From contig JAOTVB010000016.1 in the NCBI GenBank assembly GCA_029863605.1, positions 1 to 64,000 of the forward strand: a stretch of 64,000 nucleotides of DNA, read 5' to 3'. The position numbers were made by a program, and so were the translations under genes. The notes beneath the pieces are model-generated. The model worked only from the letters and a program-made list of their open reading frames with translations. It did no database searches and was not told the origin of the DNA. Source of the DNA: Myxococcales bacterium. Lineage in GTDB: Bacteria; Myxococcota_A; Polyangia; Polyangiales; Houyiibacteriaceae. Each line of letters starts with the position of its first letter. The stretch's first letter is position 1. This document shows positions 2,436-32,811 of this stretch, in pieces.

Positions 2436-2905
2436 CCGTCGATCACGGGACTCGTGTCACGGGTCGCGGTTTCCTCGATCCGCGCCTCTCTGAGCCTCGT
2501 GAAGATCTGGTAGGCACCCACTCCAACCAACATGGCTGCACCGAAAATCAGAGCTTCGTGTGACCGCGCGCCGACCGACGTGAATGCAGGGCCCGGACAG
2601 TATCCACCAAGCCCCCAGCCGACGCCAAACAATGCCGAGCCCGAAACCAGACGCCAATCGATGTCTTTTCGAGTCGGCAAGGAGAACGACGAGGCCCAAA
2701 TCGGGCGATGCCACTGCTTGACGACCGCGCGATAGACCGGGGCGTACACCAACAGGGCGCCCGCCATCACGAAGCCGAGGCTCGGGTCCCAACTCCCTCC
2801 GAAATCGAAGAACCCGACGATCTTGGCGGGCTGAGTCATGCCGGAAACGGCCAGCCCGATGCCAAACACCAAGCCTCCGAGAAACGCACCGACTTTGATT
2901 TTCAC
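2432..2905 (-). CDS. YeeE/YedE-family sulfur transport protein, second half-protein
   Basis: 157 residues if started at the GTG at 2905. That start has GGAGG just upstream and overlaps the stop of the preceding gene by four bases (GTGA), the usual sign of coupled translation. The protein has several membrane segments and the conserved GGYCPGPA with a single Cys, as in the C-terminal half of YeeE/YedE (PF04143) proteins. Related proteins import thiosulfate or related sulfur species through membrane cysteines. With the next gene it forms a split two-gene version of the family (PmpA/PmpB-like arrangement). A longer ORF upstream of 2905 is hydrophilic and Arg-rich and looks like shadow sequence. 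Confidence 0.82.
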   Translation of the reverse strand: MKIKVGAFLGGLVFGIGLAVSGMTQPAKIVGFFDFGGSWDPSLGFVMAGALLVYAPVYRAVVKQWHRPIWASSFSLPTRKDIDWRLVSGSALFGVGWGLGGYCPGPAFTSVGARSHEALIFGAAMLVGVGAYQIFTRLREARIEETATRDTSPVIDG

Positions 2906-3333
2906 ACCGCACCTCCAAGGATCTCGTTCACGATGAACACGGTGATGGCGGCGGTCGCCATGAACGACACCGTGGCGACGGTGGATCGCTTCGAAAACCG
3001 TCCGATCCCGCAAACGCCGTGCCCGCTCGTGCAACCGCTTCCAAGTTGGGTGCCGATGCCGACGGCCAGGCCCGCTGCGATCAACGCCAGGCTGGTGCGA
3101 TCGATCTCGACTCGGTATGCTCCGGGATAGAACCAGCTCCCGAGCACGCCGGCCATGAAGAGGCCGGCCAGGAACATGATACGCCACGTGACGTCACCGG
3201 GTTGCCTTCGAAAGATGCCTCCGGCGATTCCGCTGATGCCGGCGATGCGTCCGTGGAACATTAAGAGACCCGCAGCGGCCGTGCCGATCAGCGTGCCCCC
3301 AAGCGTCGATGCAATGGGTGTGAATGAGTCCAT
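2902..3333 (-). CDS. YeeE/YedE-family sulfur transport protein, first half-protein
   Basis: 143 residues from the ATG at 3333, preceded by GTGGAG. The frame stays open to 3453, but that extra stretch has no membrane character. The sequence has NGRIAG-like HGRIAGISGIAGG and the paired-cysteine loop GSGCTSGHGVCG, hallmarks of the N-terminal half of YeeE/YedE. The cysteines are thought to relay thiosulfate or sulfane sulfur through the membrane. First gene of the operon with the second half-protein and SulP, divergent from the persulfide dioxygenase. A near-perfect sigma-54 -24 element sits only about 15 bases upstream of this start codon, which creates a leader-length puzzle. Confidence 0.82.
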   Translation of the reverse strand: MDSFTPIASTLGGTLIGTAAAGLLMFHGRIAGISGIAGGIFRRQPGDVTWRIMFLAGLFMAGVLGSWFYPGAYRVEIDRTSLALIAAGLAVGIGTQLGSGCTSGHGVCGIGRFSKRSTVATVSFMATAAITVFIVNEILGGAV

Positions 3334-3347
3334 GACTCCACTACAAA

Positions 3348-3364
3348 GCACCAGGCGTGCCAAA
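3348..3364 (-). promoter_or_regulatory. Candidate sigma-54 promoter for the YeeE/YedE-SulP operon
   Basis: On the minus strand this reads TTTGGCACGCCTGGTGC. The -24 element TTGGCACG is perfect and GG and GC are separated by exactly 10 bases; the -12 element is GTGC instead of TTGC. The predicted transcript would begin about three bases before the ATG at 3333, excluding the apparent ribosome-binding site. Either the mRNA is nearly leaderless or this site is not the promoter used for this ATG. Confidence 0.5.
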
Positions 3365-3446
3365 GGTACAGCAGGTCCTCCGCACCTGATTCCCCGGGGG
3401 TTTTCTCCTCCGGCCGTTTCAAGGCTGGTTGCACCCCCGCTGTGTC

Positions 3447-3474
3447 GTTTCACTCAATGTTTCAATATGTTTCA
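3447..3474. promoter_or_regulatory. Triple GTTTCA repeat, candidate activator-binding site
   Basis: GTTTCA occurs at 3447, 3459 and 3469, spaced 12 and 10 bases, so all three lie on about the same face of the helix. They sit about 65-95 bases upstream of the predicted start of the persulfide dioxygenase transcript. This is within the range used by enhancer-binding proteins, and one is encoded nearby at 4648-5964. Assignment to that protein is inference. Confidence 0.4.
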
Positions 3475-3512
3475 GAATGGGTCCAGATGCTCGTTATTTC
3501 ATATGGTTAGCG

Positions 3513-3587: not shown

Positions 3588-4637
3588 ATGCTACTTCGCC
3601 AACTCTTCGACCACGAAACCTGGACCTATACCTATCTCGTTGCCGACGAGGAGTCGGGCAAGGCCGTCCTGATCGACCCGGTCATCGATCAGATCGAACG
3701 CGACATCCAACTCCTCGATGAGCTCGGGCTCGAGCTCGTCTACACCATGGACACACACGCACACGCCGATCACATCACCGCGTCGGGGCTCTTGCGGGAG
3801 CGATTCGGCAGCAAGGCGGTGGTAGGCGCAAACGCGGGCGCGGTCGGCGCAGACGTGCTCGTTGAAGACGGTAACACACTGGAGGCGGGCGGTCTGAAGT
3901 TCGAGGTCCGCGCAACCCCTGGGCACACCGAAGGCTGCGTCACGTACATCACCTCGGATCACAAAAACGCCTTCACCGGCGACGCGATCTTCATCCGTGG
4001 TACGGGTCGCACGGACTTTCAGCAGGGTGATCCACAGAGGCTCTACCGCTCGATCCACGACAAGATTTTCACCCTCCCCGATGACACGATCATCTGGCCC
4101 GGCCACGACTATCGCGGACGGACGTTCACGACCGTCGGCGAAGAGAAGAAGTTCAACCCGAGGGTCGGCGACGGCAGGAGTGAGGCCGAGTTCGTGGAGA
4201 TCATGAACAACCTCCACCTACCCACCCCGAGGAAACTTCACGAAGCGGTTCCCGCCAACCTCCATTGTGGCTTGGTTCCTCCGGAATCGATGTCCGGTGA
4301 TCCGCTTCCCGAGCGCGGCTGGGCGGCCATCGAGCGAACGCCAGAGGGGATTCCGGAAGTATCGACGGCATGGGTTGCGGAGAACCGAGGGGGAATTCGG
4401 ATGGTCGACGTCCGAGAGCTCGATGAAGCCGAGACCGACGGGGCCATCGAGGGCGCCGAGATCATCCCGATGGGGACCGTGGACGAGGCCTCCAAGGCTT
4501 GGGATCGCGAGCAGCCGGTGATCACCATCTGCCGATCCGGCCGGAGATCCGGTCGCGTTGCGCTCGAGCTCGAGAAGCTCGGGTTCAAGCGAATCGCCTC
4601 GATGCGCGGTGGAATGGTCGCCTGGAACAATCAGTAG
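3588..4637 (+). CDS. Persulfide dioxygenase fused to a rhodanese domain
   Basis: 349 residues; AGGAGG precedes the ATG. Residues 1-230 are a metallo-beta-lactamase fold of the ETHE1 type: H57/H59/D61/H62 (THAHADH), H113 (TPGHTEG), D132 (FTGDAIF) and H173 (PGHDYRG). In ETHE1 the iron is held by two histidines and an aspartate. The GTGRTDFQQGD segment is typical of persulfide dioxygenases. Residues about 255-349 are a rhodanese with the active cysteine in the loop CRSGRRS (C315). Known fusions of this kind oxidise glutathione persulfide to sulfite and move sulfane sulfur to or from thiosulfate. Cytoplasmic. Its neighbours are sulfur transporters, a sigma-54 activator and a TauE-type exporter that could remove the sulfite formed. 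Confidence 0.9.
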   Translation: MLLRQLFDHETWTYTYLVADEESGKAVLIDPVIDQIERDIQLLDELGLELVYTMDTHAHADHITASGLLRERFGSKAVVGANAGAVGADVLVEDGNTLEAGGLKFEVRATPGHTEGCVTYITSDHKNAFTGDAIFIRGTGRTDFQQGDPQRLYRSIHDKIFTLPDDTIIWPGHDYRGRTFTTVGEEKKFNPRVGDGRSEAEFVEIMNNLHLPTPRKLHEAVPANLHCGLVPPESMSGDPLPERGWAAIERTPEGIPEVSTAWVAENRGGIRMVDVRELDEAETDGAIEGAEIIPMGTVDEASKAWDREQPVITICRSGRRSGRVALELEKLGFKRIASMRGGMVAWNNQ

Positions 4638-31050: not shown

Positions 31051-31165
31051 TCCCTACCTATCGTCCCTGGGCTCGAATCTATCACGGAGGCGCAGAGTAT
31101 GAACACACGTAGAAGCCCCTGTGCAGACTAGGGATCCTACAACCGTCCTGGCGCTGATCCCGTTC

Positions 31166-31325
31166 TCGAGGAGTAGGTGACTCGGGCCAGGCCGCCGGCT
31201 ATGGGGGCGGAGCCAGCGGTAGCTTCGGCGTAAAAGACGATTCTAACCGGGCCCATGTCTCGGCAAACACAGCCCCGGTCATGGCCGACGAAGCCCCCAT
31301 CGGTGGCGGCCTGGCCCGAGTCACC
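31166..31325. repeat. Long inverted repeat in the 334-base gene-free stretch 31026-31359
   Basis: Bases 31176-31208 and 31293-31325 are inverted copies 33 bases long that differ only in a four-base patch; 21 bases at the outer ends are identical. The loop is 84 bases. The left arm begins with GAGTAGGTGACTCGGGCC, which recurs, as part of a 23-base identity, at 51862-51884. No ORF of note lies within. It resembles a small dispersed palindromic element. The remainder of the gap (31051-31165) shows nothing recognisable. Confidence 0.6.
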
Positions 31326-31359
31326 GGTTGACGCAGATCAAGCACTGATGCTGCTGACA

Positions 31360-31653
31360 CTACTTGATCGTTCGGTGGAGCTTCTCCATGCGGGCGATGC
31401 GATCCTTCAACATGCTCTTGAGCGCTGCTCGTAGATGGGGCTCGATGTCCGCGTCGGTGCTACCCGTGTTTGAAACGATCTCCCGATAGAGGTCGGCGGT
31501 CTCCGGAGAGACAGCAAGCGTGATCTTCGATTCACTGAGGTGGTCGTCGATCAGGCTCCGAACCAGGCCGCTCATATTGATGTCTAATTCAGCGAGATGC
31601 TCGTGCTGGTCTTCGCGAATCATCAGGCTGATTCGCCGGAAAGCCTCGGTCAT
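31360..31653 (-). CDS. Small ribbon-helix-helix-like protein
   Basis: 97 residues from the ATG at 31653, preceded by a strong GAGGAGGGG site. The N-terminus RRISLMIREDQHEHLAELDINMSGLVRSLIDDHL fits the pattern of a ribbon-helix-helix DNA-binding domain (strand, then helix-turn-helix with Ser-Gly-Leu-Val-Arg). A charged helical C-terminus follows. It is divergent from an SPFH lipoprotein across an AT-rich promoter region, so it may regulate both genes. It is not a recognisable antitoxin, as no toxin gene is adjacent. Confidence 0.6.
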   Translation of the reverse strand: MTEAFRRISLMIREDQHEHLAELDINMSGLVRSLIDDHLSESKITLAVSPETADLYREIVSNTGSTDADIEPHLRAALKSMLKDRIARMEKLHRTIK

Positions 31654-31675
31654 CGCCCCTCCTCTCGGGATTTGT

Positions 31676-31758
31676 GTGTGAGTATATACCAAATCATATG
31701 AATATGTCGAATTATTATTGACGCCATACTAATATATACACATATATAAATATCACAC
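31676..31758. promoter_or_regulatory. AT-rich divergent promoter region with inverted GTGTGA boxes
   Basis: On the minus strand TCGACA (31710-31705), 16 bases, TATATA (31688-31683) is a good sigma-70 promoter for the RHH gene. On the plus strand TTGACG (31718-31723) with TATATA (31743-31748) could serve the SPFH gene, though the 19-base spacer is long. GTGTGA (31676-31681) and its inverted copy TCACAC (31753-31758) flank the region and each abuts a TATA-rich run. The base composition is very unlike the GC-rich surroundings. Confidence 0.55.
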
Positions 31759-31780
31759 GAATAACGTAAAGGAGGCAATC

Positions 31781-32599
31781 ATGCGCGGCCCAATCATCGC
31801 CCTTTTCACCTTGGTCTTGACGGCAACCGGCTTCGGAGTCGCCGGCTGTACCAATCCTCACGCCCCAGCCGGACACGAGGGCTATGTCTTTGAAGACCCT
31901 CGTATGATCGGCGAGGGTGGGTTTCGTGGCGCGGTCAAGGGACCCGGCAACTATGGCGTCAGCGCCTTTCGAAACCGTATCATCAACGTCGACACGCGGC
32001 CGACGACCTACACCGAGGAGTTCAGCATCCTCGTGAAGGACGATCTCAATGTGGCCTTCCGGGTCCACGCCGTTCTTCAGGTCGAGCAAGGCCAGGTCCA
32101 GGCAGTAGTCGAGGAGTTTGGCGCCGGAAACTGGTACGTGCGGTTCCTGAAAGAGCCGTTTCGAACGATCGTTCGCGAGTCCGTTCAGGAGTATGCGAGC
32201 CGAGAGCTCAAGGCGGAGCGTGAAACCATCGCTAAGAAGATACAGACGGCGCTCGATACGTACCTCGAGAAGACCCCGTTCTTGGTGGTCCGGCTCGCCG
32301 TTGGAAACATCGACTATCCGCCGGTCGTTTCGCAGGCAGTCGAAAAGAAGCTCGCGGCAAAGCAGCTGCTCGAGGAGAAGGCAACGCAAAGAGAGATTGC
32401 CCAGCGCGACGCGGAGATTCGAATCGAAGAGGCCAAAGGTATCGCAGAGGCGCAGAAGATCATCAACGAGACGCTCACCTCGAACTACTTACAGCACGAA
32501 GCGATCGAAGCGCAGCGGACTATGGCGAACGCACCCAACCATACGACGGTCTACATTCCGGTCGGAACGAATGGCTTGCCGCTCGTCCATACGCGTTAG
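31781..32599 (+). CDS. SPFH/Band-7 (prohibitin-like) lipoprotein
   Basis: 272 residues with GGAGG before the ATG. The signal ends in the lipobox GVAGC, so it is membrane-anchored by lipid on the outer side. The SPFH domain covers about residues 45-210 (YTEEFSILVKDDLNVAFRVHAVLQV, FREPFRTI-like segments, LEKTPFLVVRLAVGNIDYPP). A charged coiled coil follows (EKKLAAKQLLEEKATQREIAQRD). Prohibitin-type proteins usually face the cytoplasm or are cytoplasm-anchored; a lipoprotein form is less usual. It is followed by a long hexamer repeat and a tRNA. Confidence 0.82.
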   Translation: MRGPIIALFTLVLTATGFGVAGCTNPHAPAGHEGYVFEDPRMIGEGGFRGAVKGPGNYGVSAFRNRIINVDTRPTTYTEEFSILVKDDLNVAFRVHAVLQVEQGQVQAVVEEFGAGNWYVRFLKEPFRTIVRESVQEYASRELKAERETIAKKIQTALDTYLEKTPFLVVRLAVGNIDYPPVVSQAVEKKLAAKQLLEEKATQREIAQRDAEIRIEEAKGIAEAQKIINETLTSNYLQHEAIEAQRTMANAPNHTTVYIPVGTNGLPLVHTR

Positions 32600-32603
32600 G
32601 AGG

Positions 32604-32690
32604 CAGTGTTAGGGCCAGCGTTAGTGACAGCGCCCGCATCAGCGCCCGCGCCAGTGTCAGTGTCGGAGATGCTGGCGGCGCTGGCGCTGC
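32604..32690 (+). repeat. Long YAGYGY hexamer repeat with hairpin
   Basis: Period-six track (CAGTGT, TAGGGC, CAGCGT, TAGTGA, CAGCGC, then further degenerate units) beginning right after the SPFH gene. CAGCGCC in the left half can pair with GGCGCTG near the right end, giving a large GC-rich hairpin. It is the longest of five related tracts, each at the 3' end of a gene. Confidence 0.6.
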
Positions 32691-32736
32691 CGCGCTTGAC
32701 GCGTGGTCCCGGCAAAGCTAGGCCTCGCTTTCAGTC

Positions 32737-32808
32737 GCGGGTGTAACTCAGTGGTAGAGTGCGACCTTCCCAAGGTCGAGGCCGAGGGTTCGAATCCCTT
32801 CACCCGCT
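32737..32808 (+). tRNA. tRNA-Gly (anticodon CCC)
   Basis: 72 bases fold into a full cloverleaf: acceptor stem GCGGGTG/CACCCGC, D arm ACTC-AGTGGTA-GAGT, anticodon stem CGACC/GGTCG with loop TTCCCAA, T arm GAGGG-TTCGAAT-CCCTT and discriminator T. The anticodon CCC reads GGG glycine codons. The terminal CCA is not fully encoded (CC then G follows). The antisense ORF over this tRNA is not a gene. Confidence 0.95.
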
Positions 32809-32811
32809 CCG

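Follow-up and report, generated by a model that had tools for sequence, protein, structure and literature searches.

A ribbon-helix-helix-type regulator gene, a 10-bp operator-like array and an SPFH lipoprotein gene: a predicted autoregulated divergent module in Myxococcota with homologues in Bdellovibrio/Bacteriovorax-type bacteria

In the genome of a Myxococcales bacterium, a small gene for a ribbon-helix-helix (RHH)-type protein and a gene for a membrane lipoprotein of the SPFH family point away from each other across a short, AT-rich gap. Does this gap hold an operator through which the RHH protein controls both genes, and do the two genes belong together? We analyzed a stretch of 64,000 nucleotides (the window; 61% GC), which is part of a 4.2-Mb genome. 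Both divergent open reading frames (ORFs), the RHH-type gene on the minus strand and the SPFH gene on the plus strand, had been predicted by an earlier, sequence-only reading, and each is preceded by a clear ribosome-binding site. The features of the locus are, in window coordinates:

31360-31653, minus strand: RHH-type regulator gene, 97 aa (ATG at 31653, stop at 31362-31360), recognized by ORF, ribosome-binding site and homologues
31654-31780, no strand: divergent control region, 127 bp, 35% GC, from sequence and composition
31656-31664, minus strand: ribosome-binding site of the RHH gene, GAGGAGGGG, read from the sequence
31679-31748, plus strand: operator-like array of seven tandem 10-bp units (NNNNTRYATA-like), found with a matrix trained on the Bdellovibrio/Bacteriovorax-type phylum only
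31681-31710, minus strand: promoter-like site of the RHH gene, TCGACA-18-TATACT, within the array, 10 of 12 consensus matches
31768-31775, plus strand: ribosome-binding site of the SPFH gene, AAAGGAGG, read from the sequence
31781-32599, plus strand: SPFH (Band_7) lipoprotein gene, 272 aa, lipobox Cys23, from Pfam Band_7, PHROG 200 and Cys23
32737-32810, plus strand: tRNA-Gly(CCC), downstream neighbour of the module throughout the genus, from tRNA detection and the genus loci

The AT-richness of the gap was confirmed, and its 80-bp core (31680-31759) contains 26% GC. Facing promoters had also been read into this region. The minus-strand site in front of the RHH gene (31710-31681) was recovered, but no plus-strand site reached the threshold, and the one promoter-like site found compares with 0.8 expected by chance. 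Likewise, the inverted boxes are present (GTGTGA at 31676, TCACAC at 31753), but their proposed role as an operator is not supported by the sequence comparison. As many inverted 6-mer pairs of similar GC content occurred in 10.8% of the shuffles, and conservation of the boxes is confined to the window and locus L002, its closest relative; the other six genus loci lack them.

The identity of the SPFH protein is clear. It matched Pfam Band_7 with an E-value of 1.6e-21 (77.6 bits; curated cut-off, 23.6) and thus belongs to that family. The lipobox Cys23 is invariant in all eight SPFH proteins of the genus and follows a signal peptide judged by eye, which marks them as lipoproteins. Solved prohibitins and stomatins were remote matches (best E-value, 1.7e-5). 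From a suggested connection to phages, a remote SPFH similarity is what was left: matches in 48 phage records, with 22-25% identity in the eight listed, and a match to the PHROG 200 family 'lipoprotein' (2.1e-34). A hit of the same protein to Cas10/Cmr2 (PADLOC, NCBIfam) was dismissed as noise, scoring 13.5 bits against an NCBIfam cut-off of 79.4. Outside the genus, but within the same family and order as the window, tandem pairs of the SPFH lipoprotein (35-42% identity) occur at eight loci (L025-L032) and recall the prohibitin 1/2 or HflK/C pairs; no RHH match was obtained in these genomes.

The regulator is harder to place. Among 38 members of its family, Pfam CcdA was matched by 18 at E ≤ 0.05 (best, 4.5e-5), RHH_1 by two and RHH_3 by one, and the window protein alone scored 16.2 bits against CcdA, below the cut-off of 22.4. 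A search of solved structures with the family profile returned CcdA weakly (E-value, 0.054) along with three apparently unrelated proteins. The AlphaFold2 (AF2) monomer (pLDDT 80.9, pTM 0.46) has helices at residues 14-22, 27-39, 50-63, and 67-96 and no strand. RHH proteins fold as dimers, and the monomer model is therefore a poor probe. With this model, neither Foldseek (best E-value, 3.8) nor VIA-align (best Z, 2.7) gave a significant match, and for this reason we base no fold claim on them; the RHH protein AvtR appeared in Foldseek at an E-value of 7.0. Taken as sequence matches, these results point weakly to an RHH fold. A second RHH motif in the C-terminal half was considered and rejected, since a half-against-half hhalign comparison found nothing (probability 0.7%). 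PADLOC returned no match for the RHH protein. The gene itself appears to be under purifying selection: naive dN and dS values were 0.018 and 0.378 against L002 and 0.167 and 1.065 against L008, and five comparisons gave pN values of 0.018-0.149 and pS values of 0.297-0.722.

If the two genes form a unit, they should be neighbours elsewhere, as the sequence-only reading had proposed to check. The RHH gene was detected in eight of 57 relatives (the window's genome included), all of them among the 19 genomes of the window's genus, and the same eight of the 57 carried a close SPFH homologue (at least 77% identity). At all eight loci the two genes are adjacent and divergent; the neighbours are conserved, and the pair therefore passed the adjacency test. 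The flanking tRNA, already noticed before, was identified as tRNA-Gly(CCC) and lies downstream of the SPFH gene at all eight loci as well. In the window, degenerate GCCAGC/GCCCGC hexamer-like repeats occupy the SPFH-to-tRNA interval (32600-32700), and in L006 a repetitive reading frame lies beside the tRNA-Gly. Absence of the module is not always loss, because several of the 11 genus genomes without the RHH gene are incomplete. Genome G016, however, has probably lost it: a 36-aa C-terminal SPFH remnant (89%; L033, 1501-1608) sits beside tRNA-Gly(CCC), and no RHH match was found in this genome.

Only L002 shares the outer flanks with the window in full. In L006, one of the window's flank genes (ATC-hydrolase-like, 84%) directly adjoins the RHH gene, and L003, L004, L006, and L007 share, by eye, another gene on the RHH side, a TonB receptor according to Pfam in L003, the one copy tested. 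This pattern fits a chromosomal module with local rearrangement. Acquired DNA, as had been suspected from composition and flanks, is not supported. The overall GC content of the RHH and SPFH genes is slightly low (57% and 59%, compared with 61% for the window), but their GC3 values (0.742 and 0.739) fall within the range set by five genes nearby (0.71-0.78). Searches of phage records, plasmid records and viral contigs gave no match to the RHH protein. Because of the GC3 values, the absence from these collections and the constant tRNA-Gly neighbour, a recent acquisition is unsupported.

Homologues of the regulator were found in a second phylum. A scan of genome contigs recovered 15 RHH loci, seven in the genus and eight in Bdellovibrio/Bacteriovorax-type bacteria (49-57% identity), one of the latter (L011) being labelled Deltaproteobacteria. 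A profile search then detected the protein in 37 of 290 genomes sampled from the Bdellovibrio/Bacteriovorax-type phylum, the eight scan loci included, and in three of 282 genomes from the window's phylum, namely two of the genus and one with a divergent copy that adjoins another lipoprotein-like gene. The 37 genomes comprise 26 with a close homologue (L009-L016, L067-L084), eight with a diverged subfamily, and three with fragments only (G591, G471, G506).

Contig ends truncate two of the 26 close loci, L011 and L077, which leaves 24 for an evaluation of the neighbours. Twenty of the 24 sit beside PspC or SPFH-type genes: 14 diverge from a double-PspC gene, recognized in all 14 both by a built profile and by Pfam PspC, two have the RHH gene in front of an SPFH lipoprotein gene, and in four it precedes an NfeD and then an SPFH gene. 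The remaining four lack these partners and neighbour a rhomboid gene (L009), a GluTR-like gene (L068 and L075) or an Hsp70-like gene (L071). In each of the 14 PspC genomes, the RHH-adjacent PspC gene was the sole PspC match. A Band_7 search of ten genomes yielded a single, RHH-linked match each in G595, G543, and G012, eight matches in G512, and two in each of the others.

In a phylogenetic tree, the eight genus RHH proteins form one clade (99/97), placed next to L071 with support of 94/93, below the tool's star level. At L071 (82-1359), this nearest homologue lies downstream of the gene that resembles Hsp70/MreB. Since the clade is nearest to a protein from Bdellovibrio/Bacteriovorax-type bacteria and the gene is rare in Myxococcota, the RHH gene may have been transferred from one phylum to the other long ago. 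Partner types were clustered in the tree, with six changes compared with 21.3 in shuffles, a difference that is partly due to near-copies.

We then asked what the RHH genes have in common upstream. The k-mer list was headed by ribosome-binding-site words like that of the window's RHH gene; these aside, the most enriched 6- and 7-mers were TACATA, ACATAC, and ATACATA. RCATA was counted at 33 loci, comprising 25 of the 26 close homologues in the Bdellovibrio/Bacteriovorax-type phylum and the eight genus loci. Out of 71 same-strand pairs within 45 bp, 55 were spaced by multiples of 10 bp, and these came from 20 of the 33 loci: a spacing of 10 bp was seen in 21 pairs (0.23 in shuffles), one of 20 bp in 17 (0.18), one of 30 bp in nine, and one of 40 bp in eight. 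Related loci are not independent in these and the other locus counts, and near-duplicates inflate them; with five dropped, 50 of 65 pairs were still at multiples of 10. The window, L002, L004, L005, and L008 are among the 13 loci without an in-register pair. The window's own array is degenerate, as none of its RCATA pairs is spaced by a multiple of 10; among the genus relatives, L006 and L007 have cleaner arrays.

A motif-free measure of self-similarity gave the same spacing. Lag 10 was the top lag in all five groups of loci, 4.8-8.2 fold over shuffles, with z values of 11.5 for the genus, 11.1 for the PspC loci, 10.0 for the SPFH-operon loci, 5.9 for the other close loci, and 11.9 for the diverged subfamily; lag 20 was likewise raised in the larger groups. 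For single loci, lag 10 was marginal in the window (p = 0.04) and not significant in L002 (p = 0.145). Putative regularly spaced sites are thus present at the RHH gene's own promoter, and they are weaker in the window itself. In the diverged subfamily (L085-L088, L098-L101), the 10-bp lag is kept and the upstream boxes look different (TGAGCA/TGAGTA or ACACAC). By eye, all eight of its loci have a divergent ORF of about 100 aa, and in four of them a similar gene follows, whose L087 copy, the single one run against Pfam, is FecR.

To compare the phyla, we used two matrices trained on the Bdellovibrio/Bacteriovorax-type phylum. The stringent one found an array in six of the eight genus loci at p ≤ 0.006, with p = 0.032 for the window and 0.096 for L002. 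Summed over the eight loci, period 10 was far the best; the window alone favoured period 8, and a place at 3456 (minus strand) outscored the gap (6.0 compared with -1.9). The softer matrix, trained on in-phase neighbours, detected an array in all eight genus loci with p-values of 0.001-0.010, which are somewhat optimistic because this matrix was built after the stricter result was known. Among periods 7-13, period 10 summed to 156 and the next best, 12, to 99. In the window, the seven units at 31679-31748 gave p = 0.002, period 10 was the best of 7-13, and the gap was the best array of all 64 kb (19.7; next, 11.0; 8.7 at 3456). It was also the top array at the seven other genus loci. The units lie on the SPFH strand in the window and L002 and on the RHH strand in the other six. 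At 3456-3495, the window has an ACATA-like pair spaced by 10 bp between divergent ORFs (2902-3453, minus strand; 3588-4637, plus strand). The gap between the RHH and SPFH genes can thus be described as a tandem array of 10-bp units (NNNNTRYATA).

Could the periodicity be a generic feature of AT-rich promoters, such as bendability or phased A-tracts, rather than an operator? Some of the data lean that way. Elsewhere at these loci, 56 intergenic regions had a mildly raised lag 10 (z = 2.9; 79 vs 45), with stronger peaks at 6 and 12, and the 19 AT-rich ones had z values of 2.8 at lag 10 and 3.7 at lag 11. The RHH regions also have side peaks, at lag 8 in the genus (z = 5.9), 12 in the SPFH-operon loci (3.4), 9 in the other close loci (3.1), and 44 in the PspC loci (4.4). 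Nevertheless, lag 10 tops every RHH-region group, the periodicity follows a specific box, and the matrix of this box transfers between phyla. We consider the generic explanation improbable.

Equally doubtful is the view that we are dealing with a global regulator, or a nucleoid-like protein, whose neighbours are incidental. Of the 34 genomes that carry a close homologue, we scanned 32 for a strict three-box pattern, leaving out G318 and G474 with their cut loci. Nine places, corresponding to seven distinct arrays in seven genomes, were found, and for six of the seven arrays, no more than 110 bp separate the near edge from the RHH gene downstream. With the pattern reversed as a control, the same 32 genomes gave no array. 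The strict pattern was absent from 25 of the 32, the window's own among them. The one strict array elsewhere and the four of 24 evaluable loci with other neighbours are what a global regulator would predict, but the location of the other six arrays at the RHH gene and the finding that the single PspC gene is the RHH neighbour in 14 of 14 genomes speak against it. The seventh array (L092, 1149-1173, in G512) precedes an ORF of 120 aa whose start, judged by eye, is signal-like; the gene divergent from this ORF resembles, also by eye, a WYL/DeoR-type regulator. The 120-aa ORF is possibly a second target of the RHH protein.

The reading we prefer, and regard as likely, is an autoregulated divergent module in which the RHH protein would bind the 10-bp units, repress its own gene, and set the level of the SPFH protein. 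A self-regulated two-gene module had been proposed at the outset, and the conserved neighbours and the ordered operator-like array in the gap agree with it at the level of sequence. The alignments and scans show that the neighbours are conserved, that a 10-bp lattice exists and is nearly restricted to the RHH gene, and that this gene bears signs of purifying selection. From these we infer binding, repression, relief, and an envelope function of the module. RHH dimers would fill the units at 31679-31748 cooperatively and side by side. The bound protein would cover the promoter-like site of the RHH gene (31710-31681) and the start region of the SPFH gene, so that both would be repressed. When the envelope needs more scaffold, some signal would relieve the repression; perhaps the membrane protein or its target titrates the repressor.

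An antitoxin-like (CcdA-like) role of the RHH protein, with the partner as a toxic or neutralised element, is very unlikely. CcdA is indeed the best Pfam match of the family. The partner, however, is a 272-aa SPFH lipoprotein, a PspC or an NfeD protein rather than a small toxin, and no toxin family came up in the Pfam scans that covered neighbours (SPFH, PspC, NfeD). Moreover, 22 of the 28 partnered loci are divergent instead of co-directional, and the RHH protein lacks matches in PADLOC and in phage or plasmid records. ParR of the ParR-parC partition system, too, has extra helices after its RHH part, as the AF2 model has here. ParR belongs to the RHH proteins and forms a complex in which 10-bp repeats take part (PMC5016525); in the present case, membrane genes adjoin and no ParM gene was seen next door in the ORF lists. 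That array and protein form a ParR/parC-like centromere, a partition-like or DNA-tethering complex in place of a repressor, is the least credible reading: the shared repeats and the Hsp70/MreB-like gene next to homologue L071 speak for it, but SPFH adjoins RHH at eight of eight genus loci and the plasmid records searched gave no match.

How does the autoregulated module relate to known circuits? It resembles RHH autorepressors that spread over several sites (MetJ, whose boxes are 8 bp long, CopG, omega, and SvtR/F55 of archaeal viruses) in its small dimer-type DNA binder, in the (here predicted) control of its own gene, and in its repeated sites. It differs in having an envelope protein as the partner and a unit of 10 bp with a TRYATA core; omega uses heptads. 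Passages of PMC5569661 describe SvtR as a repressor of its own promoter, F55 as binding two tandem repeats, and RHH dimers as binding cooperatively. The closest article among the matches listed, PMC11237479, mentions that certain CesT/Tir-PspA operons, and Toastrack operons of Actinobacteria, include RHH factors. SPFH-NfeD operons are common (PMC13086221). Four of our homologous loci are RHH-NfeD-SPFH operons of this kind, but with a dedicated RHH gene in front, and the main text of PMC13086221 never uses the term 'ribbon'. Among the matches listed from the open-licence PMC literature, there was no report of an RHH-membrane-gene pairing or of the 10-bp array.

A second comparison concerns the phage shock protein (PSP) systems, which are controlled by PspF, Lia or ClgR. 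In B. subtilis, the SPFH protein YdjI connects PspA with the membrane (PMC8581546). PspC, a PSP component, occurs at homologous loci of the Bdellovibrio/Bacteriovorax-type phylum, but the regulator here is RHH-type, and no PspC match was found in the four module-bearing genus genomes searched (one of them 79% complete), which separates the window's module from a PSP system. All four gave PspA_IM30 matches on other contigs. The missing PspC fits a replacement of the partner. Because the same kind of regulator and lattice stands beside PspC, SPFH, and NfeD-stomatin genes, the regulator and operator seem to have been kept while the membrane partner changed. The interchange of these partners beside one regulator suggests a common job in envelope maintenance and makes a role in membrane stress plausible.

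The recurrence of regulator and spacing in two phyla beside membrane-maintenance genes suggests that cell-envelope proteins are under a control circuit not described before. Whether it amounts to a new regulator class dedicated to genes of envelope maintenance we would put at an even chance. Such a class would combine an RHH-type protein and a 10-bp lattice kept across two phyla with effectors (double PspC, SPFH lipoprotein, NfeD-stomatin) swapped within a single envelope-stress circuit that PspF, Lia, and ClgR do not control, and would in the diverged subfamily keep the spacing with different boxes. Membrane maintenance by PspC, SPFH, and NfeD proteins is widespread, and little is known of the control of these proteins outside well-studied bacteria. 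An operator that can be read from sequence offers a handle on when predatory Bdellovibrio-like bacteria and uncultured Myxococcota use such genes. A testable functional link is suggested as well, namely that PspC and SPFH proteins may substitute for each other.

A minor observation concerns the palindromic repeats that had been noted on the RHH side of the module. They are present and are better read as one copy of a dispersed repeat of about 185 bp with 33-nt inverted ends (31140-31345). The repeat has 31 matches in its own genome, itself and its own two arms counted, and five other copies cover most of the interval at 85-89% identity. It looks like a MITE- or REP-type element.
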